Source: Eubacteriaceae bacterium
Lineage (GTDB): Bacteria; Bacillota; Clostridia; Eubacteriales; Eubacteriaceae
Assembly: GCA_012522805.1 (NCBI GenBank)
Contig: JAAYJS010000023.1
Location: 57,976-121,975, forward strand
Reading direction: 5' to 3'
DNA: 64,000 nucleotides
This document shows positions 49,751 through 61,322 of this stretch, piece by piece; position 1 is the stretch's first letter, and each line of letters opens with the position of its first letter. Below the pieces are notes generated by a model. The model ran no database searches. It was not told the origin of the DNA and was given only the letters and a program-made list of their open reading frames with translations. The position numbers were made by a program, and so were the translations under genes.

Positions 49751-50539
49751 TTACTTTTTTTGTAATAAGCCCAAATAAGTGACTTCTTTGTTCACTGATC
49801 GCTGTATGGTCTCCAAGTGCTCTTTATGTGTAACCACAATACAAGAAGAGCTCGGCCCGCCGGAGGTATGGATATCGATGGGTATATTTTCATCATATTG
49901 GGCGATTAAGCCGTTGTTTTCTGCTAAATGGTCCAGTTCGTAGGCGATACCTTTAGAACCCACAGGACGCATTTCTTTGATTTCCGGTAAACTCCGAAGT
50001 TGTTGATAATCTGTCAGTTTTAAAGCCTTGTCAAAATAGGTGACATAATCGTGACCGACCAGCGTTCGTCCTATTAATAAGGCGATATCCCCGGGTTTTG
50101 CCAATTGAGTTTTAAAACCGTCGTTATCGATGAGACCGATAACGGTAATACCCGCACCGGTTTGTACGGTTTTCATGTTGTCTTCGCAAGAACCGGTCAA
50201 GGCTATGTCGCTTTCCGTTAATTCTGACATGGCTTCCCGAATACCTTGAACAATTCTTTTCCCGGTAGGGTCGGTTTCTACAGATAAACCGTTGGAAATA
50301 GCAACCGGCGTCGCACCGATGGCAATCATTTCCGCTAAAGCGACCCGTACAGTGGTTTCTCCAACGTGTTCCGGGGTGACCTTTACAAGATCCGCCTCTT
50401 TATTGCCGATGGCACCGATGGAATCGCAGGTGATCACCAAAGAGCGACCGTCCGTTAAATCGACAACGGTACAGTCGCCAATGCTAAAATGTTTGTAATG
50501 CTTTTTTATACGATTTGTCATGTACTCCCTACTCTTCAT
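49751..50539 (-). CDS. AIR synthase-fold protein, possible alpha-ribazole kinase CblS-like
   Basis: CDSIGAIGNKEADLVKVTPEHVGETTVRVALAEMIAIGATPVAI...ALTGSCEDNMKTVQTGAGITVIGLI, resembling PurM/CblS-type ATP-binding domains. Confidence 0.6.
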   Translation of the reverse strand: MKSREYMTNRIKKHYKHFSIGDCTVVDLTDGRSLVITCDSIGAIGNKEADLVKVTPEHVGETTVRVALAEMIAIGATPVAISNGLSVETDPTGKRIVQGIREAMSELTESDIALTGSCEDNMKTVQTGAGITVIGLIDNDGFKTQLAKPGDIALLIGRTLVGHDYVTYFDKALKLTDYQQLRSLPEIKEMRPVGSKGIAYELDHLAENNGLIAQYDENIPIDIHTSGGPSSSCIVVTHKEHLETIQRSVNKEVTYLGLLQKK

Positions 50540-51374
50540 AAAGTTCCTCTAAGGTTAAGCCCGTTTCATGTATGAGTTGCGCCATTTCTACTCCAATGTA
50601 ACGCAAATGCCAAGGTTCGTAGCCGTAACCGGTCTTATGAGTTTTATCCTTTGGGTAGCGAACGATAAAACCATATTGCCAAGCATGTTCCGCCACCCAC
50701 CGACCTTCCGGTGTGTTTTCAAAGGCTTCCACCAAATCATGACCCACGGATTCGCAGGACAGATCTACCGCCAAGCCGGATTGATGTTCGCTGGCTCCGG
50801 GCGGCGCCGATTCATTTTCCGCTGCTGCTCGTCCCATACTTGCGATATAGCCGTTATGGAGGCGTTCTTGCAGGGCATAGGAGCGATAAACCGAAATCAC
50901 ATAAAGAATTTGGCCATTTGCTTCGGCATCCGCCATCAGACGCTCCAAAGCCTCGGCGGCTTCCGCGCGCATCATGGCGCCGTCATAGGCTCGCGTGCCT
51001 AAAACCGACATGTTTTCCGGAATATAATCCGGTGGTAAGGGATGTTCAGGACTGATCAGAGCCGTTATGGCTTTGTAACCCTCGTCGCTGTGTACAGCGC
51101 GCAGCTCACTTGCTTGCATTTTCAAATTTTGAAGATATTCTTCTCCAGAAAGCTCAGATTCCGATTCCGGATCTGGTTGCTGCCCATGGATTTGCGCATA
51201 TTTTCCAACGATGCTTTCGTCAAACAACCAGGTTCGTTCTTGCTGTTCGTACATTTTTTCTTCGTCAGGATCTCCAGTCCATAAAGGCTGTAAGGCCATG
51301 GTGAGAGAAATTACAAAGATGGCGATCCATTGTAGTAGAATATATTGACTGTGACGATTCATCGTATACCTCAA
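50529..51374 (-). CDS. VanY-type D-alanyl-D-alanine carboxypeptidase (M15)
   Basis: SVYRSYALQERLHNGYI, PPGASEHQSGLAVDLS, EPWHLRYIG. Confidence 0.92.
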   Translation of the reverse strand: MRYTMNRHSQYILLQWIAIFVISLTMALQPLWTGDPDEEKMYEQQERTWLFDESIVGKYAQIHGQQPDPESESELSGEEYLQNLKMQASELRAVHSDEGYKAITALISPEHPLPPDYIPENMSVLGTRAYDGAMMRAEAAEALERLMADAEANGQILYVISVYRSYALQERLHNGYIASMGRAAAENESAPPGASEHQSGLAVDLSCESVGHDLVEAFENTPEGRWVAEHAWQYGFIVRYPKDKTHKTGYGYEPWHLRYIGVEMAQLIHETGLTLEELYEE

Positions 51375-51431: not shown

Positions 51432-51656
51432 TTACGATTCCCCTTGATTGAAAAGAATTTTTGCCTTTAACAATGCTTCTTTGCTTTTTAGAAAATTGTC
51501 TTTGGCTTGGATTAAATTTTCATGTACTCCGGGAGCACTGTTCTTTGTTTGATCAATCCAAGTTTGATAATCTTGACTATGGGCATCGATATGATTTTGC
51601 CAATACACCACCAAGACTTTAAATAACTCTTTTTCCTTTTGACTCAACATATGCAT
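51432..51656 (-). CDS. 74-aa helical protein resembling the linker domain of the His-rich AcsB
   Basis: LFKVLVVYWQNHIDAHSQDYQTWIDQ aligns by eye with MLKVLLAHWADHNEEHAKEYKQWAEK in the 52721..55564 product. Confidence 0.75.
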   Translation of the reverse strand: MHMLSQKEKELFKVLVVYWQNHIDAHSQDYQTWIDQTKNSAPGVHENLIQAKDNFLKSKEALLKAKILFNQGES

Positions 51657-51658
51657 TC

Positions 51659-52078
51659 TTATGATCCTAATTTCAATTCTTTTTTGATACGGTCGACAGC
51701 TTCTTTGAGTTGCAATAGCAAGGGCTTATCTTCCAATGCAACGATTCGATAGTTGTCCGGCATGATGGGAATCAGAACTTTGATGGCATTGCTGTTGCTG
51801 ATGGCTTCCACCATTTTAGTGGTGACTTCTCCAAACAACTCGTTGGGGATGGCGATAGACAATGCTCCGACGACAATATCGGCTTTCTGTACATTGACGA
51901 CAATGGCGTTTTCTCCTGTTGCCCCTTTGTTGGCACCCTTTTTAAGCATGGCAGCCGTTGCCAAAGCATTTGTACCCAGGCCAAATATTTCGATGTCGGG
52001 AGGTAATTCTTCTTTTAATAAGCTGACAAGGCGGGAGCCAACGCCCCCACCCATGCCATCTATGACTACTATATTCAT
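51659..52078 (-). CDS. DUF3842-like small Rossmann-type protein
   Basis: MNIVVIDGMGGGVGSRLVSLLKEELPPDIEIFGLGTNALATAAMLKKGANKGATGENAIVVN. Confidence 0.75.
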   Translation of the reverse strand: MNIVVIDGMGGGVGSRLVSLLKEELPPDIEIFGLGTNALATAAMLKKGANKGATGENAIVVNVQKADIVVGALSIAIPNELFGEVTTKMVEAISNSNAIKVLIPIMPDNYRIVALEDKPLLLQLKEAVDRIKKELKLGS

Positions 52079-52279
52079 CTATATATTTGTTTCTTCCAAG
52101 ATAATTTTATGCTTGAGTAATTTTACTTCCTTTATTTTAGCCTGAAGGGTTTTGGTCGTTCCCAATAAATCTGTTAAAGTCAATTGACCATCTTCTTCCG
52201 GGAAGATGTCGATGACGTATTCCATAATTTTTTCTTCTTCTCCGTTTTTATTTAAGAGAAAAGCTGTAGATTCACACAT
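52079..52279 (-). CDS. CooT-like small nickel-binding protein
   Basis: About 66 aa, begins MCESTAFLL (Cys at position 2 as in CooT) with ...EEDGQLTLTDLLGTTKTLQAKIKEVKLLKHKIIL. Confidence 0.72.
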   Translation of the reverse strand: MCESTAFLLNKNGEEEKIMEYVIDIFPEEDGQLTLTDLLGTTKTLQAKIKEVKLLKHKIILEETNI

Positions 52280-52394
52280 AATTGTTCCTTTCAAAATTTT
52301 ATTTTTCGTTGTTGATTTCAATATCAAATTGTTTTATTTTTTATCAATCGTCCTACCAACTGCTGTGCTGATAGGTTGATTGGTAGCAAGCTCT

Positions 52395-52680
52395 CACAAT
52401 GCTTTACACAAGCCATGACACTCGCTTTTTTTGCTTCGCAAAAACCATACATAGTAAGAAATGCGGCGTGACTTCATTCGCTCCGTTAGCAAACAGTTTT
52501 GCAAGCAAGCTCTCACAGTGCTTTATATAAGCCATGACACTCGCTTTTTTGCTTCGCAAAAATCGCAACATAGCAAGAAATGCGACGTGTCCTTCATTCG
52601 CTCCGTTTCACTTCGCTCATTTACGGACACGCCATATGAACACCTTCGTCATTATGCACTTGTAAGAGCAAGCTCTTACA
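52395..52680. repeat. Two imperfect copies of an intergenic repeat downstream of the His-rich acsB
   Basis: Shared cacaagccatgacactcgctttttttgcttcgcaaaaa...aagaaatgcg-cgtg-cttcattcgctccgtt blocks. Confidence 0.8.
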
Positions 52681-52720
52681 GTGCTGCATTCCTTGATATT
52701 CGCATTTCTTATGTCTACGC

Positions 52721-55564
52721 TCACATAATCGCTTCTAAGTCGAGGGCTGGGTGTCCTTTTTCGGACAAGAATTCCAGTACGGCTTCGGATTCGGTTGCAA
52801 TGGTTTCATCGCAGACCATATCCGTAAAATTGTCGATGTCGTATAACTCTTTTGCCGCTCTGTTTAACCTATCCGCTACATCGTCTTTCAGCTCTTTGGG
52901 CATCCATACGATACGTTCGATACCGCCTTCGGCAGCCATAAATTTCTTGGATCCGATAAAGTGACGGCCATGTCCCATAAAACCGGGTGTTTGAACACCG
53001 CCACCGGTCATGGAGGCCAATTCACCGAAGGTCATGCCCACAGGTGTCATACCGCCAAATTCACGGTTGACGATCACCACGCCGTTGGCTTCGGGCATGA
53101 TGCCGCAAATACACTCAAAGCAGCCGCAAGAAGTCATGGGATCTTCCAAAATCGAATAAAGCGTTACTTGTTCCACCGCACCCCTGGATAAGTCCGCCAC
53201 CATTTCGTTGACTTCCTCCCAAGCGCCGGTTCTGCTGTCGATTTGTTTTTCCTTATCAATCGGCTGTGAGGGACCGACGGGATCCAGCTCGAAGGTTGCC
53301 TTGGAGTCTAACCAAGATACGGCACCGCACAGACCTAAGCGCTCCGGTGTGACCACGCATACATGGGCCGGTGCAAAGGATTGACAGAGGGTACAGGTAT
53401 AAAATTGATCGACACTTTCGTCCGTCATGGCGTCCAAGCGTTCGTCCCTGCGCCTATAAATGGGTTTTGCCAATTCCTCTTCGTATTTTTTGACGTCTTC
53501 TTCGTTGGTATACAGGGTTACAGCACATTTATCGACAATCGTGCTGAATTCATCCCGTAGTTTTGCATAGAGTACTTCACCGATGTGTTTGAGTCTAAAC
53601 CCTTTATTGTAGGAGTCCTTGCTGATGCGTATCCAAGAGATGTCTCTCTGACCGACGTGCATCACCCCTTCAATATAATTGGTAAAGTAGTGGATGCGTC
53701 TTTCTAAAACGGATTCGAAATCCTCTTGCATGTTTTTTCCGGCAACGGAAACCTTGATGCCCAAGGGCAAGCGGATGACGTCTTGTCCCTCAAAAGAAGG
53801 ATCGTCGATGTCTTTTCCAATCACTTCGATGTGGTGGTCTTCAATATTGTTTAACTCTTCCGTGACGACCAATTCCCAACATTTTGTGATGTTTCCGCCA
53901 AATTCTGCCTTCATCATGTCTTTGCGAATTCGTTCGCCTTCAAAGGCCGAGGCAACTTGTACGGGGCTGTCGATCTCTGTCACTTTAATTTTGATACCCC
54001 TCGTATCCAAAGAAGTTTGTAATGTTTCTTTGTGATCGGTTACGGACAGCAGCGCATCGGGGACTTCGGGAACTTCGGTATCTGCTAGAACCGGGAATCC
54101 CAAAGCAATGGCTCCGGCACCGGCGGATACGGTAATCTCATCTAAGGGACCGAAGGTATTGACAAAAGCCGGGACTCTCTCCTTGGTGTACGCTAAAAGA
54201 GCACCTAAGTTGCCGGGTTCTACGGCTCCGAAAATAAGCGCAGCGCGTATGGCCACGGATACAACGTGAATGACGGCTGTAATGTCATACCCTAGTGGGA
54301 TCACTCTGAATTCCAAGCCCATTTTAACGTCCGATTCGGCTATTTGATCTACGATATCTCCCACAAGAAAGGTCATTAAACCTCTGTTCTGGTATTCCTT
54401 AACCAGTTGAACGGCATCCTCCGGTGGGTCGCATTTGCCAATCATCACGGCAATACCTGGAATATCGCCCGTTACCAGAGGAACCCCTAAAGATCGAATG
54501 ATGGGATCCGGTATATGCCCGATGCCTACCTGATCTTCGTAAGGGTTCGGGTTGAGATATTTAAGTGCCTCGATGATTTCGGCACCAACTGCGGTTGCCA
54601 AACCGGCATTCAAAGCTTCTCCTAAATCGTCCTTTCCGGATATCAAACTCTTTTGAATGTTGATGGCTTCAACCAAATCTTCCAACCGTGTTATTTTAAT
54701 ACCGGTTGCCGCATAAATGACTGGCAATCCGTAAGCGGTATCGGGAAACGATACAGCGGCTTCTTCTCCATGTTGTTGAATAGCCTCTTGTACTAAACTT
54801 TCCGTTAAATCTGCTACGGCATTTGCACCTGTGTAAATAATATCTACTAGTCCCATAAAGTCCTCCTTCGGGTTATACCATTGATTCATCAATGGCTTAG
54901 ATTGATATGTCTGATAATCTGCTATATGGTCATACAAGCTTTTTAGCGCTTCTGCTAAATACTGATTGGCTTTATCGACATAATCGATGGCTTCGTCAAT
55001 GGCTTTTGCGACATCTTCCTTTCCGGCGGCTTTCATTTTTTCCGCCCATTGTTTATATTCCTTTGCGTGTTCTTCGTTGTGGTCTGCCCAATGTGCCAAC
55101 AAAACTTTCAACATTTTGTCTTCATTACCCGTCGCACCGTGACTATGGCTATGGCCTTCGCCATGGTCGTGACCGTGGTGATGACCATGTCCGAGATCGT
55201 GGCCATGACTATGGCTATGACTGTGCGCATGGGTATGAACGCCCACCTCTTCGTCGTGGGTATGACCGTGGTCGTCCCCTGAGCTGTGGTCGTGCTCGTG
55301 GCAATGCTCGTGGGTATGTTCATGGCTGTGATCATGTTTGTGATCGTGGGGATGATCGTGGTCGTGGCTATGACTGTGGGTATGGGTATGGGCATGTGTG
55401 TGAACGCCCACTTCTTCGTCGTGGGTATGACCGTGGTCGTCCCCTGAGCTATGGTCGTGCTCGTGGCTATGCTCATGGGTATGTTCGTGACAATGCTCGT
55501 GTCCGTGATCATGGGAATGTTGATGATCGTGGGGATGATCGTCGTGATTGTGGTGATGGCTCAT
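52721..55564 (-). CDS. acsB: Acetyl-CoA synthase (CODH/ACS beta-type subunit) with N-terminal His-rich tract and small helical domain
   Basis: C-terminal ~710 aa is full-length AcsB-like with A-cluster motifs YTCTLCQSFAPAHVCVVTPERLGLCG and SCGCFECICG; N-terminus MSHHHNHDDHPHDHQHSH...; start trimmed to MSHHH. Confidence 0.93.
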   Translation of the reverse strand: MSHHHNHDDHPHDHQHSHDHGHEHCHEHTHEHSHEHDHSSGDDHGHTHDEEVGVHTHAHTHTHSHSHDHDHPHDHKHDHSHEHTHEHCHEHDHSSGDDHGHTHDEEVGVHTHAHSHSHSHGHDLGHGHHHGHDHGEGHSHSHGATGNEDKMLKVLLAHWADHNEEHAKEYKQWAEKMKAAGKEDVAKAIDEAIDYVDKANQYLAEALKSLYDHIADYQTYQSKPLMNQWYNPKEDFMGLVDIIYTGANAVADLTESLVQEAIQQHGEEAAVSFPDTAYGLPVIYAATGIKITRLEDLVEAINIQKSLISGKDDLGEALNAGLATAVGAEIIEALKYLNPNPYEDQVGIGHIPDPIIRSLGVPLVTGDIPGIAVMIGKCDPPEDAVQLVKEYQNRGLMTFLVGDIVDQIAESDVKMGLEFRVIPLGYDITAVIHVVSVAIRAALIFGAVEPGNLGALLAYTKERVPAFVNTFGPLDEITVSAGAGAIALGFPVLADTEVPEVPDALLSVTDHKETLQTSLDTRGIKIKVTEIDSPVQVASAFEGERIRKDMMKAEFGGNITKCWELVVTEELNNIEDHHIEVIGKDIDDPSFEGQDVIRLPLGIKVSVAGKNMQEDFESVLERRIHYFTNYIEGVMHVGQRDISWIRISKDSYNKGFRLKHIGEVLYAKLRDEFSTIVDKCAVTLYTNEEDVKKYEEELAKPIYRRRDERLDAMTDESVDQFYTCTLCQSFAPAHVCVVTPERLGLCGAVSWLDSKATFELDPVGPSQPIDKEKQIDSRTGAWEEVNEMVADLSRGAVEQVTLYSILEDPMTSCGCFECICGIMPEANGVVIVNREFGGMTPVGMTFGELASMTGGGVQTPGFMGHGRHFIGSKKFMAAEGGIERIVWMPKELKDDVADRLNRAAKELYDIDNFTDMVCDETIATESEAVLEFLSEKGHPALDLEAIM
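55200..55500 (-). repeat. In-frame ~165-bp tandem repeat within the His-rich coding region (approximate bounds)
   Basis: SSGDDHGHTHDEEVGVHTHAH occurs twice, 55 codons apart; DNA copies near 55237 and 55402. Confidence 0.9.
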
Positions 55565-55665
55565 AATATTTCTCCTGTTCTTTATTTTCGATCTGAAATC
55601 GATTCTCATTGTTAACTGTCTGAATTTAAGAACGCATCCCAAATGTGGTGGTTTACGTTACCGTT

Positions 55666-55671
55666 ATTATA
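55666..55671 (-). promoter_or_regulatory. Candidate extended -10 promoter element for the His-rich acsB
   Basis: Minus strand TGTTATAAT upstream of the acsB start and downstream of a terminator. Confidence 0.5.
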
Positions 55672-55706
55672 ACACGTTTTCCAAAATATATAAAAATGAA
55701 TCTAAA

Positions 55707-55735
55707 AAAAGCAAGGGTTTGACACCTTGCTTTTC
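55707..55735 (-). terminator. Intrinsic terminator separating the His-rich acsB from upstream genes
   Basis: Minus strand AAGCAAGGTGTCAAACCCTTGCTTTTTTT. Confidence 0.75.
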
Positions 55736-55859
55736 AAAGCAAATTGATTATTGATGGATCGACGGTTCTGTACGATCTAACTTCTGTTTTGTTATCGCAA
55801 AATATAAGATATGCGATTGGTCCGATTCGTTTTCGTGTTTCCTCGAAACATTCATGTAC

Positions 55860-56250
55860 GAGCGCGCCTAACAAACCACCACGTCGTGCTTTGGATTTTT
55901 ATATAAAAAAATCCAGAACGCAGTCTCTATTCGCTTTTTTTGCTTTGCAAAAATCGTTACACAATCAGAAATGCGGCGTGACCTCATTCGCACCGTTTCA
56001 CTTCGCTCATTTCGCGGTTACGCACAAATTTCTAGGACCAAAGGGACGTAGCCATTTGTAACGCGTAACCTGTGCAACAGGAGTCCAAGAACCCGACTGT
56101 AAGGAGGGGTGATTGGAAACGACGAACTGCTCGGACACGCCTAACAAATCCCAACGTCGTGCTTTGGATTTTTATATAAAAATCCAAAACGCAGTCTCTA
56201 TTCGCTTTTTTTGCTTTGCAAAAATCGCTCATAGAGGACCGCGTCCTATA
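55860..56250. repeat. Two further imperfect copies of a related intergenic repeat upstream of the His-rich acsB
   Basis: acgtcgtgctttggatttttatataaaaa..atcca.aacgcagtctctattcgctttttttgctttgcaaaaatcg occurs twice; shares ttcgcttt-tttgct-cgcaaaaa and aaatgcggcgtgac-tcattcgc with the downstream copies. Confidence 0.8.
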
Positions 56251-56330
56251 AAACTCTTCACAATCATGCGTTTCTGAGAGCAAGCTCTCAAGACGCATGA
56301 TTGCTAGAGCTTTGCACGACTTTGGACTAA

Positions 56331-58478
56331 CTACATGATTTCATCCATGTTTAAGGCCGGGTGACCTTTTTCTGTTAAGAATTCTAAAACTGCTTCCGAT
56401 TCGGTTGCAATGGTTTCGTCGCAGACCATGTCGGTAAAGTTATCGATACCGGACAGTTCTTTAACGGTTTTGTTAAGTCTGTCGGCTACGTCGTCCTTCA
56501 ATTCCTTCGGCATCCATACGATTCTTTCTACGCCGCCTTCAGCAGACATAAATTTCTTGGAGCCGATAAAGTGACGACCGTGTCCCATAAAGCCGGGTGT
56601 TTGAACACCACCACCGGTCATGGAGGCCAATTCACCGAAGGTCATACCCACGGGTGTCATGCCGCCAAATTCACGGTTGACGATGACCACACCATTGGCT
56701 TCGGGCATAATACCGCAAATACACTCAAAACAACCGCAAGAGGTCATGGGATCTTCCAAGATGGAGTATAAGGTTACTTCTTCAACAGCACCTTGAGAGG
56801 CTTGAGCAACGACTTCGTTGACGCTTTGATAAGCACCGGTTCTTTCGTCGGTTAAACCTTTTTTCTCAATCGGTTGGGAAGGTCCTGTGGGGTCTAGTTC
56901 TTTGGTTGCTTTGGAGTCTAACCAAGATACAGCACCGCATAAACCTAAACGCTCGGGTGTAACGACACAAACGTGCGCCGGAGCAAAGGATTGACATAAC
57001 GTACAGGTATAGAATACATCGACGCTTTCGTCTGTCAGAGAGTCCAGTCTTTGGTCTCTGGCATTGTAAATCGGTCTTGCCAATTCTTGTTCTAAGCGTT
57101 TGACTTCTTCTTCATCGGTATAGATGTTTACTTCGACTCTGTCTACTACTTTGCCAAATTCGTCTAGCATTTTAGCATAGATGACTTCGCCGATATGTTT
57201 GAGTCTAAAGCCAGCTTCATAGGCTTCTTTTGTCAAACGTACCCATGTAATGTTTCTTTGACCAACGTGCATTGCACCCTCGATGTAGTTCATAAAGTAG
57301 TGCAATCTTCTTTCCAATACGGATTCGAAGTCACTTTGCATCGCTCTACCGGCAACTTTTACTTCGATTCCTAGGGGTAATCGAACAACTTCACCGGCTT
57401 TAAAGCTTTCATCGTCGATATCCGGTCCGTGTAATGTAATTTTGTGGTCTTCACATTCACTTAAACCGACAGTACGCACCAATTCCCATGCCGGGGTTCT
57501 GTTGCCGCCAAATTCAGCAAACATATTGTCTCGACGTACACGTTCTCCTTCGAAAGCAGAGGATACGGATACAGGACAATCGATTTCTGTAACCTTAATT
57601 TTAATATTTCTAGCTTCTAAGGAAGTAGTGACCACTTTGTCGCTATCCGGCTGATGCAACAACAAGGTCGGAACTTCGTTGATGTAAGTTTCTGTAATTG
57701 CCGGGAAACCCATGTCAATGGCCGCTGCACCAGCTGCAATGATTTTAGGTGTCCAGTCATCAAATACGTTAACAAATGCAAAGACACGGTCTCTGGTGTA
57801 GATACGGTGTTTGATCCATTCGCCCGGAGGGGTCGCTCCAAACATGATCGAAGCTCTAACCGCTACGGATACAACGTTGATGACGTCTTCGATGTCATAA
57901 CCACAGGGGATGACGCGCAGCTCAACGCCCATTTTAATATTTTGTTCTACCGCTTGGTCGATTACATCGCCAACTAAATAAGTTTGCAAACCTTTATTTT
58001 GGTAGGATTTAATAATTTCTGCAAGTTTTTCAGGGTCTTTGTGTTTACCAATGATAACAGCAACACCTGGAATATCTTGAGTAACTAAAGCAACACCGAA
58101 GGAACGTACCATAGCGTCGGTTAAGTGACCTTGTACGTGTTCCGGGTGCGGTTTGCCGTCGATATATTTACATGCTTGAATGATTTCTGTATACATGGCT
58201 GCTGCAACACCGGCATCCAATGCATCTTGTAGGTAGCGCGTGCGGTTGGTTCTGGCTGCTGCCATTTCCAAACCTCTTTCCAAATCGCCTACTGTTTCAA
58301 GTTTTTCGCCTGTGATGGCATAGATAACCGGTAGAGCGTAAGCGGTATCCGGTAGTTTACCGACAGCCTCGCGACCTTTTTCTTCGATCGTTTTGGCAAC
58401 CAGCTCTTCTGCTCTTTCTTTATATTGGGCAACGCCTTCAAAAATAACGTCAAAAAGGTTTACAGCTTTGTGTTCCAT
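56331..58478 (-). CDS. acsB: Acetyl-CoA synthase (CODH/ACS), standard-length copy
   Basis: Full-length AcsB-like with A-cluster motifs YTCTLCQSFAPAHVC...LCG and SCGCFECICG. Confidence 0.96.
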   Translation of the reverse strand: MEHKAVNLFDVIFEGVAQYKERAEELVAKTIEEKGREAVGKLPDTAYALPVIYAITGEKLETVGDLERGLEMAAARTNRTRYLQDALDAGVAAAMYTEIIQACKYIDGKPHPEHVQGHLTDAMVRSFGVALVTQDIPGVAVIIGKHKDPEKLAEIIKSYQNKGLQTYLVGDVIDQAVEQNIKMGVELRVIPCGYDIEDVINVVSVAVRASIMFGATPPGEWIKHRIYTRDRVFAFVNVFDDWTPKIIAAGAAAIDMGFPAITETYINEVPTLLLHQPDSDKVVTTSLEARNIKIKVTEIDCPVSVSSAFEGERVRRDNMFAEFGGNRTPAWELVRTVGLSECEDHKITLHGPDIDDESFKAGEVVRLPLGIEVKVAGRAMQSDFESVLERRLHYFMNYIEGAMHVGQRNITWVRLTKEAYEAGFRLKHIGEVIYAKMLDEFGKVVDRVEVNIYTDEEEVKRLEQELARPIYNARDQRLDSLTDESVDVFYTCTLCQSFAPAHVCVVTPERLGLCGAVSWLDSKATKELDPTGPSQPIEKKGLTDERTGAYQSVNEVVAQASQGAVEEVTLYSILEDPMTSCGCFECICGIMPEANGVVIVNREFGGMTPVGMTFGELASMTGGGVQTPGFMGHGRHFIGSKKFMSAEGGVERIVWMPKELKDDVADRLNKTVKELSGIDNFTDMVCDETIATESEAVLEFLTEKGHPALNMDEIM

Positions 58479-58619: not shown

Positions 58620-59399
58620 CTACTTTGAGCCTACAGTCGCTTCTATTTTTTCTCCTAATTGTCCGATGATTTCTCTAGTTTCTGGATCATCGTATGGTGA
58701 CATATTGTTCCGATCGGATGCAATGATTTCGTCTCTATATGGGAGGAATCCGATAATATTGGATTCCCCTACTCTTTCCGTAATAAAGTCTTCATCGGCT
58801 TTTGATCTGATTTTGTTTCCAATGACAAATACTTTTTTAACTCCGATATCCTCCGCCAGTTTGCAAATTTTGTTAAAAGTTTGAACACTTCTAACACCCG
58901 GCTCCACAACGACAATGAACGCGTCCACTGATTGAGCGGTGCCTCTTGCCAGATGTTCGATACCGGCTTCCATGTCCATGACGACTACGTCTTTTTCGAA
59001 AAGAACCAAGTGCGTCATCAACATTTTTAAAAGCACGTGTTCGGGACATACACAACCGGACCCTCCGGCATCTACTGTACCCATGGTCAGCAGTTTGACG
59101 CCTTTGTGAACTTTTGAAAACTTTTCAGGAATATCATCCACATCCGGGTTCATCTTAAAGAGTGAGCCGTAGGTTCCTGTTTGTGCATTTGTTCTTTCTT
59201 CGACAAGGTCTTTCATTTCAGAAATGGGAACAATATCAGCGATTTCTTCTTCTGACATACCTAAAGCTAATCCTAGGTTCGCATCGGGGTCCGCGTCCAC
59301 AGCTAAAACTTTGAATCCCTTGTCAGCAAAATAACGACACAGGCTTGCTGTGATGGTGGTTTTACCGACACCACCCTTACCTGTCAATGCAATTTTCAT
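58620..59399 (-). CDS. cooC: CODH/ACS nickel maturation ATPase CooC-type
   Basis: MKIALTGKGGVGKTTITASL deviant Walker A; CVCPEHVLLK; between CODH and acsB. Confidence 0.93.
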   Translation of the reverse strand: MKIALTGKGGVGKTTITASLCRYFADKGFKVLAVDADPDANLGLALGMSEEEIADIVPISEMKDLVEERTNAQTGTYGSLFKMNPDVDDIPEKFSKVHKGVKLLTMGTVDAGGSGCVCPEHVLLKMLMTHLVLFEKDVVVMDMEAGIEHLARGTAQSVDAFIVVVEPGVRSVQTFNKICKLAEDIGVKKVFVIGNKIRSKADEDFITERVGESNIIGFLPYRDEIIASDRNNMSPYDDPETREIIGQLGEKIEATVGSK

Positions 59400-59426: not shown

Positions 59427-61322
59427 TTAAATACCTAAATTCTTTCTCTTCTCTTCAATATCGTCTGCGATTAAGTCTGCCATGACAACCGGGTCTTTTT
59501 CAAAGACGAAAACTGATTTAGTGGTTTCCATCAAACCTTCGGTCATAAGCTTTTTAAAGTTTTCGCTACCATCTACATAAGGCACAATACCTAGGTATGT
59601 ATTGATTCCGGAACCAACGCAGTAAGATGCAATCGCAACAGCTTTTTCAGACATCCACTCCGGTGCTACCCCTACAACCGGTAGATCGGAAATGTCCACG
59701 CCTCTTTCGTTGGCAACTCGGGCTACGATATCTAGAATACGGGAAATGTCAACACAGGAGCCCATGTGTAATACCGGAGGAATATTTGCTCTTTCACATG
59801 CTTCTTTCAGTCCACGTCCAGCTAATTCTTTTGCTTCTAATTGTAGCAAACCTGCTTTTGCAGCTGCTTGAGCGGCACAACCTGTGGTAACACAGATGAT
59901 GTCGTTTTTAATCAATTCCTTCATAACGGTAACGTGACTGTAGTCATGTTCTGTTTTAGGGTTGTTACAACCAACAATACCTGCTGCCCCTCTTAAAACA
60001 CCTGCCCAAATTAAGTCGGATAGTGGTTTAACGGTTCCTTCAATGTCTACTTGAGTGTTGACAACACGGTCCAAGCAGCCGATGGTCGTTTCTACAGAGT
60101 AGCCGATCATGGTGTCTTGTTTTAAATCCGGGATTTCAATTTTAGAAGCATCTCGGTTTTTGTAATTGTCGACAGCAACTTTAACGACTTCCTTTGCTGT
60201 TTCATAAGGATTGTGTTCGTCAAATTCTATGTAGAGGTCTCCTGCAATTTTTGCCTTTGGAGAAGTCGAAATAAAACGTGTATGATAATGGTCCACTAAG
60301 TTTGGCAATGCCGGGAAGATACATTGTACGTCCACAATGACGGCTTCTACTGCTCCGGTAATAACTGCCATTTCTTGTTGATAGAAGTTACCGGCAATCT
60401 TAATACCGTGACGCATGGTTACTTCGTTACCCGTACAGCACATACCAACTACGTTGATGCCCTTAGCACCGTTTGCTTTGGCTATTTCAAGCATTTCCGG
60501 ATCCTTGGATGCAACAACAACCATTTCTGCTAAGTTGGGGTCATGCCCGTGTAGAACGATGTTGACAGATTCTTCATCTAAGACACCTAAGTTGGACTCG
60601 GATGCTCTTTCTTGTGGAACACCGTACATGATGTCGGAGAACTCGGTTCCGATCATAGAACCTCCCCAACCGTCGGACAAACCTGTTCTTAATGAACGTC
60701 TCATTAAGGATTCGTAGTCCGATGCACAACCAATGTGGGTGGAGTGTAATAAAGTCGTAACTTCTTGGTCAATCGCTCTAGGTGCAATATTTTCTCTTTC
60801 CCAAAGTTCTTGACGTACTTTTGGTGCTCTCTTAAGGAATTTAAGTGTTCCAAAGGGCTTACCAAATTCTAACAATGCCATTTCTGCCAATTCATGGGCT
60901 AATTCATAGGTTTCTTTTGTGTCTGAACCTTCGATTCCCCATTCATTTGCAATTTGACGAAGTTTTGCTTCGTCTCTGATTTTAAAAGGTCCTTCTGCAG
61001 ACGATAAGTGCATCGCATGGACAATATCTCTTGCGTGGTCAGAGTGGGCTGAAGTTCCCGCTGCTACCATTCTTGCAAAGTTACGTGCTACGATGGTGTC
61101 TCTATCTGCACCGCAAATACCGCGTTGTGGTCCTTTTTCCGGGTTCGGGCTGACTCTGCATGGACCCATAGCACAAATACGGCAGCAAATACCTTGCTCA
61201 CCAAATCCACATTGGGTTTTAAGTGCTTTTTTACGGTCCCACATGGTTTCTGCGCCTTCTCTAGAGGCTTTTTCCATTAATGCTTCAGCAATAACATCAA
61301 ATTCTAACAATTCATTGCTCAT
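59427..61322 (-). CDS. acsA: Ni-dependent carbon monoxide dehydrogenase catalytic subunit
   Basis: CGFGEQGICCRICAMGPCRVSP...RGICGADRDTIVARNFARM; HMGSCVDISRIL. Confidence 0.95.
   Translation of the reverse strand: MSNELLEFDVIAEALMEKASREGAETMWDRKKALKTQCGFGEQGICCRICAMGPCRVSPNPEKGPQRGICGADRDTIVARNFARMVAAGTSAHSDHARDIVHAMHLSSAEGPFKIRDEAKLRQIANEWGIEGSDTKETYELAHELAEMALLEFGKPFGTLKFLKRAPKVRQELWERENIAPRAIDQEVTTLLHSTHIGCASDYESLMRRSLRTGLSDGWGGSMIGTEFSDIMYGVPQERASESNLGVLDEESVNIVLHGHDPNLAEMVVVASKDPEMLEIAKANGAKGINVVGMCCTGNEVTMRHGIKIAGNFYQQEMAVITGAVEAVIVDVQCIFPALPNLVDHYHTRFISTSPKAKIAGDLYIEFDEHNPYETAKEVVKVAVDNYKNRDASKIEIPDLKQDTMIGYSVETTIGCLDRVVNTQVDIEGTVKPLSDLIWAGVLRGAAGIVGCNNPKTEHDYSHVTVMKELIKNDIICVTTGCAAQAAAKAGLLQLEAKELAGRGLKEACERANIPPVLHMGSCVDISRILDIVARVANERGVDISDLPVVGVAPEWMSEKAVAIASYCVGSGINTYLGIVPYVDGSENFKKLMTEGLMETTKSVFVFEKDPVVMADLIADDIEEKRKNLGI

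Follow-up and report, generated by a model that had tools for sequence, protein, structure and literature searches.

The window, the whole 64,000-nucleotide stretch that we analyzed of a contig from an acetogen-type Eubacteriaceae bacterium, carries a series of CODH/acetyl-CoA synthase (ACS) genes and small candidate nickel-handling genes on its minus strand. Read along this strand, the series begins with acsA, encoding the Ni-CODH catalytic subunit (59427..61322; TIGR01702), a gene for a CooC-type nickel-insertion ATPase of 259 aa (58620..59399), assigned from P-loop NTPase families and gene context, and acsB1, encoding an acetyl-CoA synthase of 715 aa (56331..58478). There follows a 947-aa ORF (52721..55564) that we call CooJ::AcsB2, with a Shine-Dalgarno sequence AGGAG ahead of its ATG at 55564, and then a trio of small genes encoding the predicted nickel-binding protein CooT of 66 aa (52079..52279), a DUF3842 protein of 139 aa with a conserved DGxGGGxG motif (51659..52078) and a 74-aa stand-alone CooJ-type domain without a His tail, CooJ2 (51432..51656). 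The preliminary description of the locus placed this trio, tightly spaced and on the same strand, behind the His-rich acsB. Spacing and strand stand, the gaps within the trio being 2 and 0 nt, but a repeat-bearing spacer of 441 nt separates it from the stop codon of that acsB. The spacers flanking acsB2 (52280-52720 and 55565-56330) contain direct repeats of 91 nt at 80% and of 59 nt at 95%, and also a 20-nt perfect inverted pair. Downstream of the module (49751-51374, minus strand) lie genes for a VanY-type carboxypeptidase and an AIR-synthase-related protein, a pair that likewise follows the module in Eubacterium (L041). A search for a riboswitch at the module found none; a cobalamin riboswitch above the Rfam threshold lies at 1495-1676 of the window (minus strand).

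The first two products of the trio had been described as CooT-like, with Cys2, and as resembling DUF3842, and profile searches bear out both assignments. CooT matches PF10133 (E=2.7e-22, 79.3 bits against a Pfam cut-off of 27) and the solved CooT of PDB 6fan (E=4.9e-9), its start MCESTAF aligning on CEASAF of 6fan. The likeness to known CooT thus lies in a protein of 66 aa, in the conserved Cys2 and in a match over the whole length; the difference is that the window gene is tied to DUF3842 and CooJ genes beside acsB. Cys2 is the nickel ligand in R. rubrum CooT; known CooT binds nickel as a dimer. The second protein matches PF12953 (E=1.7e-48, 164.8 bits against a Pfam cut-off of 28.5). Its predicted model has a Rossmann-like arrangement (pLDDT 93), but a fold search returned only weak Rossmann-type matches (TM-scores of about 0.4-0.53), and we therefore claim no enzyme activity for it. 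The term DUF3842 was absent from the literature searched.

The third product had been read as a stand-alone copy of an AcsB linker domain, aligning by eye with the helical part of the His-rich AcsB. Homology between the two withstood testing: they align with a Smith-Waterman score of 78, where shuffles average 28 (z=9) and 0 of 5000 came up to it, and each sequence retrieves the other in a genome-wide search of this assembly (E=1.2e-4 and 1.6e-3). Against a profile built without either window sequence the 74-aa protein obtained 28.1 bits, the best shuffle 13.2. A weak third match lies on contig C3 of this genome (E=0.5). The name of the domain, by contrast, has to change. A profile of 25 aligned relatives collected from the order, in which an H-x3-H motif keeps both of its His throughout, found as its best PDB match R. 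rubrum CooJ (6hk5, E=0.0019), aligned across the whole domain and with the three-His motif falling column by column, HWADHNEEH of the AcsB2 domain on HFLDHVEGH of 6hk5. The great distance of R. rubrum CooJ keeps the E-value modest; R. rubrum CooJ itself obtained 20.8 bits against the profile, the best of about 4,900 shuffles 10.8. On this alignment the window domain is a relative of the nickel chaperone CooJ, present as two paralogs, one His-rich and one tail-less. An AcsB-specific linker was rejected, the domain being a separate gene in related genomes.

Other searches were less informative. Pfam and NCBIfam hold no family for the 74-aa protein or its His-rich relatives, and single-sequence PDB searches returned nothing useful, CooJ being recovered by the profile only. 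The AlphaFold2 monomer of the CooJ domain is a two-helix hairpin (pLDDT 97.8), a shape too simple for a fold search to inform, and this search gave generic helical matches with none at E<=0.001. When the helical domain of the window served as query against named genomes, no matches were found; an Acetobacterium sequence as query gave four loci and three named Acetobacterium species, the 25-row alignment being too diverse to serve as a scan query.

Known CooJ forms a homodimeric coiled coil that holds nickel where its subunits meet, and in the work of Alfano et al. 2019 on the 6hk5 structure it is reportedly defined by the motif H(W/F)X2HX3H and a His-rich tail. The domain of the CooJ::AcsB2 ORF (residues 150-209; 54938..55117) is homologous, has the motif as HWADHNEEH and has a tail with about 60 His, which is N-terminal (residues 1-145; 55130..55564). 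The 74-aa protein departs further. Its motif reads YWQNHIDAH, with Tyr in place of the first His, where its orthologs have HWINHNGEH and similar sequences, and it contains only 4 His in 74 residues. Judged by its sequence it is CooJ-like and not a strict CooJ: it is homologous, but lacks the first motif His and the tail. Across the 63 domains found, 55 retain H[WF]X2HX3H, and the window 74-aa protein is among the 8 that do not. At one locus (L117) two CooJ matches accompany a separate His-rich protein of 168 aa.

Gene order in Acetobacterium and Eubacterium is acsA-cooC-acsB-His-rich cooJ-cooT-DUF3842-74-aa cooJ2, in which the His-rich cooJ forms a gene of its own. Many Acetobacterium genomes have a second acsB between the His-rich cooJ and cooT, and the window has the same order with cooJ and acsB2 in one frame. 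Second acsB genes have been reported in Eubacteriaceae strains (PMC10625859). Orthologs of the 74-aa gene encode 72-77 aa and are present in 26 of 28 ACS-bearing Eubacteriaceae genomes, the window genome included. In the synthase tree, the window AcsB1 groups with Eubacterium AcsB (82% identity) and AcsB2 lies nearest the Acetobacterium AcsB2 group, on a long branch and at no more than 72% identity. At the DNA level acsB1 and acsB2 (56331-58478 and 52721-54856) are 42-76% identical in most blocks and 93% identical over codons 600-650, a tract that may reflect gene conversion.

The preliminary description took the long ORF as a His-rich AcsB with a helical domain. As an ORF this is correct, but incomplete, because an internal ribosome-binding site and ATG permit a separate AcsB2. 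The internal Shine-Dalgarno sequence AAGGAGG (54862..54868) lies five bases upstream of ATG GGA CTA GTA at 54856 (MGLVDIIYTG), where Acetobacterium AcsB2 begins (MSLTDLIYAG), and the product from this start (52721..54856) would have 711 aa, the length of Acetobacterium AcsB2. This AcsB2 part is full-length (NF040764, 1059.7 bits against a cut-off of 800) and keeps the C-terminal CGCFEC. The CooJ domain reaches roughly the full extent of separately encoded CooJs and is followed by 27 codons (54857..54937) that are probably former intergenic sequence. From these sequence features it looks as if cooJ had lost its stop codon while acsB2 retained its start; CooJ::AcsB2 as well as free AcsB2 would therefore be expected, and the making of the two products is likely.

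A wrong base in the assembly would give the same frame, the true order then being acsB1-cooJ-acsB2-cooT-DUF3842-cooJ2 as in Acetobacterium. This fits the intact acsB2 start with its strong ribosome-binding site and the extent of the CooJ domain. It also fits the finding that, of the 61 genomes in which CooJ matched strongly, this one alone has it in frame with acsB: in the surveyed genomes every other strong match to CooJ lies in a frame of at most 240 aa, and the remaining synthase ORFs do not exceed 778 aa. Moreover, a random 26-codon spacer stays open with a probability of 0.21, hence one wrong base would be enough. Against such an error, all 27 codons are open with no frame break, and the assembly has a completeness of 97.8% and a contamination of 0.25%. 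We regard the error as doubtful, while giving it more weight than the other alternatives considered below. The fusion is also the basis of a tentative proposal, which we hold with no greater confidence: CooJ::AcsB2 might act as a working chaperone tethered to its client and provided with a His-rich store, alongside free AcsB2 made from the internal start, with the tail-less CooJ and the DUF3842 protein as the mobile part of the delivery.

The description had staked its proposal of a nickel module on co-occurrence with acsB in other genomes, and this was found. Across 67 genomes from the order, CooJ and full-length ACS coincide without exception (39/39, 0 discordant), a count from which one weak match to CooJ and three genomes whose synthase-like proteins are all divergent were left out; CooT agrees with ACS in 38/39. 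A sample of 392 genomes of the class contained 19 with CooJ, 18 of them with ACS and all 19 with CooT, and three ACS-bearing genomes without CooJ. In the phylum sample ACS was present in 14/14 further genomes with a strong CooJ match and absent from three with weak partial matches. Pooled, strong CooJ matches occur in 61 Bacillota genomes, of which 60 have acetyl-CoA synthase, usually with CooT adjacent; the surveyed genomes are related, so that these counts are not independent events and overstate independence. In the neighborhoods CooJ (J), CooT (T) and DUF3842 (D) occur in the orders J-T-D, T-D-J, D-T-J, J-T and T-J, and that their linkage is kept despite this reshuffling argues for a shared function.

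The DUF3842 protein behaves differently from CooJ. It is part of the CooJ/CooT/acs cassette in several families, but the suggestion that it belongs to a dedicated ACS system does not hold genome-wide: across the order it occurs in 31/39 genomes with acetyl-CoA synthase and in 18/28 without, which is no significant association (p=0.26), and we rejected ACS-specificity on this count. In part of the acs-less loci it lies near CooT, CbiMQO, Nik/Opp-type transporters or corrinoid genes. At L108 (G036 contig C72), in an Acetobacterium genome, an additional DUF3842-cooJ2 cassette adjoins an Opp/Nik-type ABC transporter, and the copy of CooT there contains a stop codon. Further His-rich CooJ-type proteins are encoded beside Opp/Nik-type ABC transporters at L044 and L046.

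These features of DUF3842, together with the His-rich CooJs of family f3 that adjoin Opp-type transporters, would suit general cobalt/nickel housekeeping such as uptake buffering, with CooJ, CooT and DUF3842 beside acs by chance and with no part in delivery to CODH/ACS. We consider this unlikely, since CooJ tracks ACS in 60/61 genomes and mutants of an acetogen point the other way. In the acs cluster of C. autoethanogenum the gene for a His-rich protein, hp (CAETHG_1604), lies beside that for the CooT nbp (CAETHG_1605), and deletion of cooT (nbp) or of hp lowered AcsB and CooS1 protein and altered growth and products; added nickel in minimal medium did not separate the cooT mutant from its parent (PMC10230548). 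The likeness to the window is a His-rich protein adjoining CooT at an acs cluster. The differences are that hp was left hypothetical in that paper and that no tail-less paralog and no fusion accompany it. At L114 and L115 a CooJ-CooT pair lies in a setting like that of hp/nbp, with which we do not equate it. A third alternative, that AcsB2 and the window 74-aa protein are functionless copies undergoing decay, is in keeping with their long branches, with the loss of the first motif His from the 74-aa protein and with a small genome (2.0 Mb against 3-4 Mb in relatives), but both ORFs are intact, AcsB2 retains CGCFEC and its domain matches and the 74-aa gene is present in 26/28 synthase-bearing genomes of the family, which makes decay improbable.

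We consider it highly probable that the module is a CooC/CooT/CooJ-type set for nickel storage and delivery to CODH/acetyl-CoA synthase and that DUF3842 is in many cases an additional partner. The ACS nickel maturation and storage module of the preliminary description thus persists as a CooC/CooT/CooJ set, on homology and co-occurrence, and loses DUF3842 as an ACS-specific member. In such a set, the His-rich CooJ would buffer nickel on its His tail, and the CooJ helical hairpin would bind a single exchangeable nickel at its H(W/F)X2HX3H site and pass it on through the three-His site. CooT would carry nickel via Cys2, and CooC would use ATP to open or prepare the client for insertion, the A-cluster being the presumed destination. 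The tail-less 74-aa CooJ may pair with the His-rich CooJ or act as a carrier, and the two paralogs may interact or compete, as had been suggested. Pairing is conceivable, since the title of a cited paper reportedly calls R. rubrum CooJ dimeric.

Several known systems resemble this one in part. R. rubrum CooJ (6hk5) shares with the window the helical domain with H-F/W-x2-H-x3-H, the His-rich tail of the His-rich form and a gene that accompanies cooC and cooT beside a Ni-CODH. It differs in that its tail is C-terminal and that of the window form N-terminal; moreover, the window form is in frame with an acetyl-CoA synthase, has a tail-less paralog and belongs to a cluster that presumably serves CODH/ACS. 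In R. rubrum, strain tests demonstrate that cooC, cooT and cooJ matter under nickel scarcity and that CooT and CooJ help to load Ni-CODH (PMC6006190). Ni-CODHs of structural groups B-1 and B-3 likewise carry a His-rich metal-binding stretch on the nickel enzyme itself (PMC6344411), but there it is a His-rich extension only and on CODH, whereas in the window an acetyl-CoA synthase carries a complete CooJ domain. CooJ and CooT have already been noted in one-carbon-associated clade E CODH operons (eLife 2026, PMC13056359); the text of that article contains no DUF3842, and the portions considered here do not describe a tail-less paralog or a CooJ::AcsB ORF. As far as those portions go, CooJ and CooT at acs are partly known, and the tail-less paralog, the link to DUF3842 and the CooJ::AcsB2 frame are added here.

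Little is understood of how the A-cluster of acetyl-CoA synthase receives its nickel. With a CooJ-type domain and the synthase together in 60/61 genomes, the CooJ-CooT-DUF3842 set becomes a direct and deletable candidate for the A-cluster nickel step, for which A. woodii, E. limosum and C. autoethanogenum are tractable acetogens. CooJ::AcsB2 is possibly a naturally tethered pair of chaperone and enzyme, and the cassette provides a first functional context for DUF3842.
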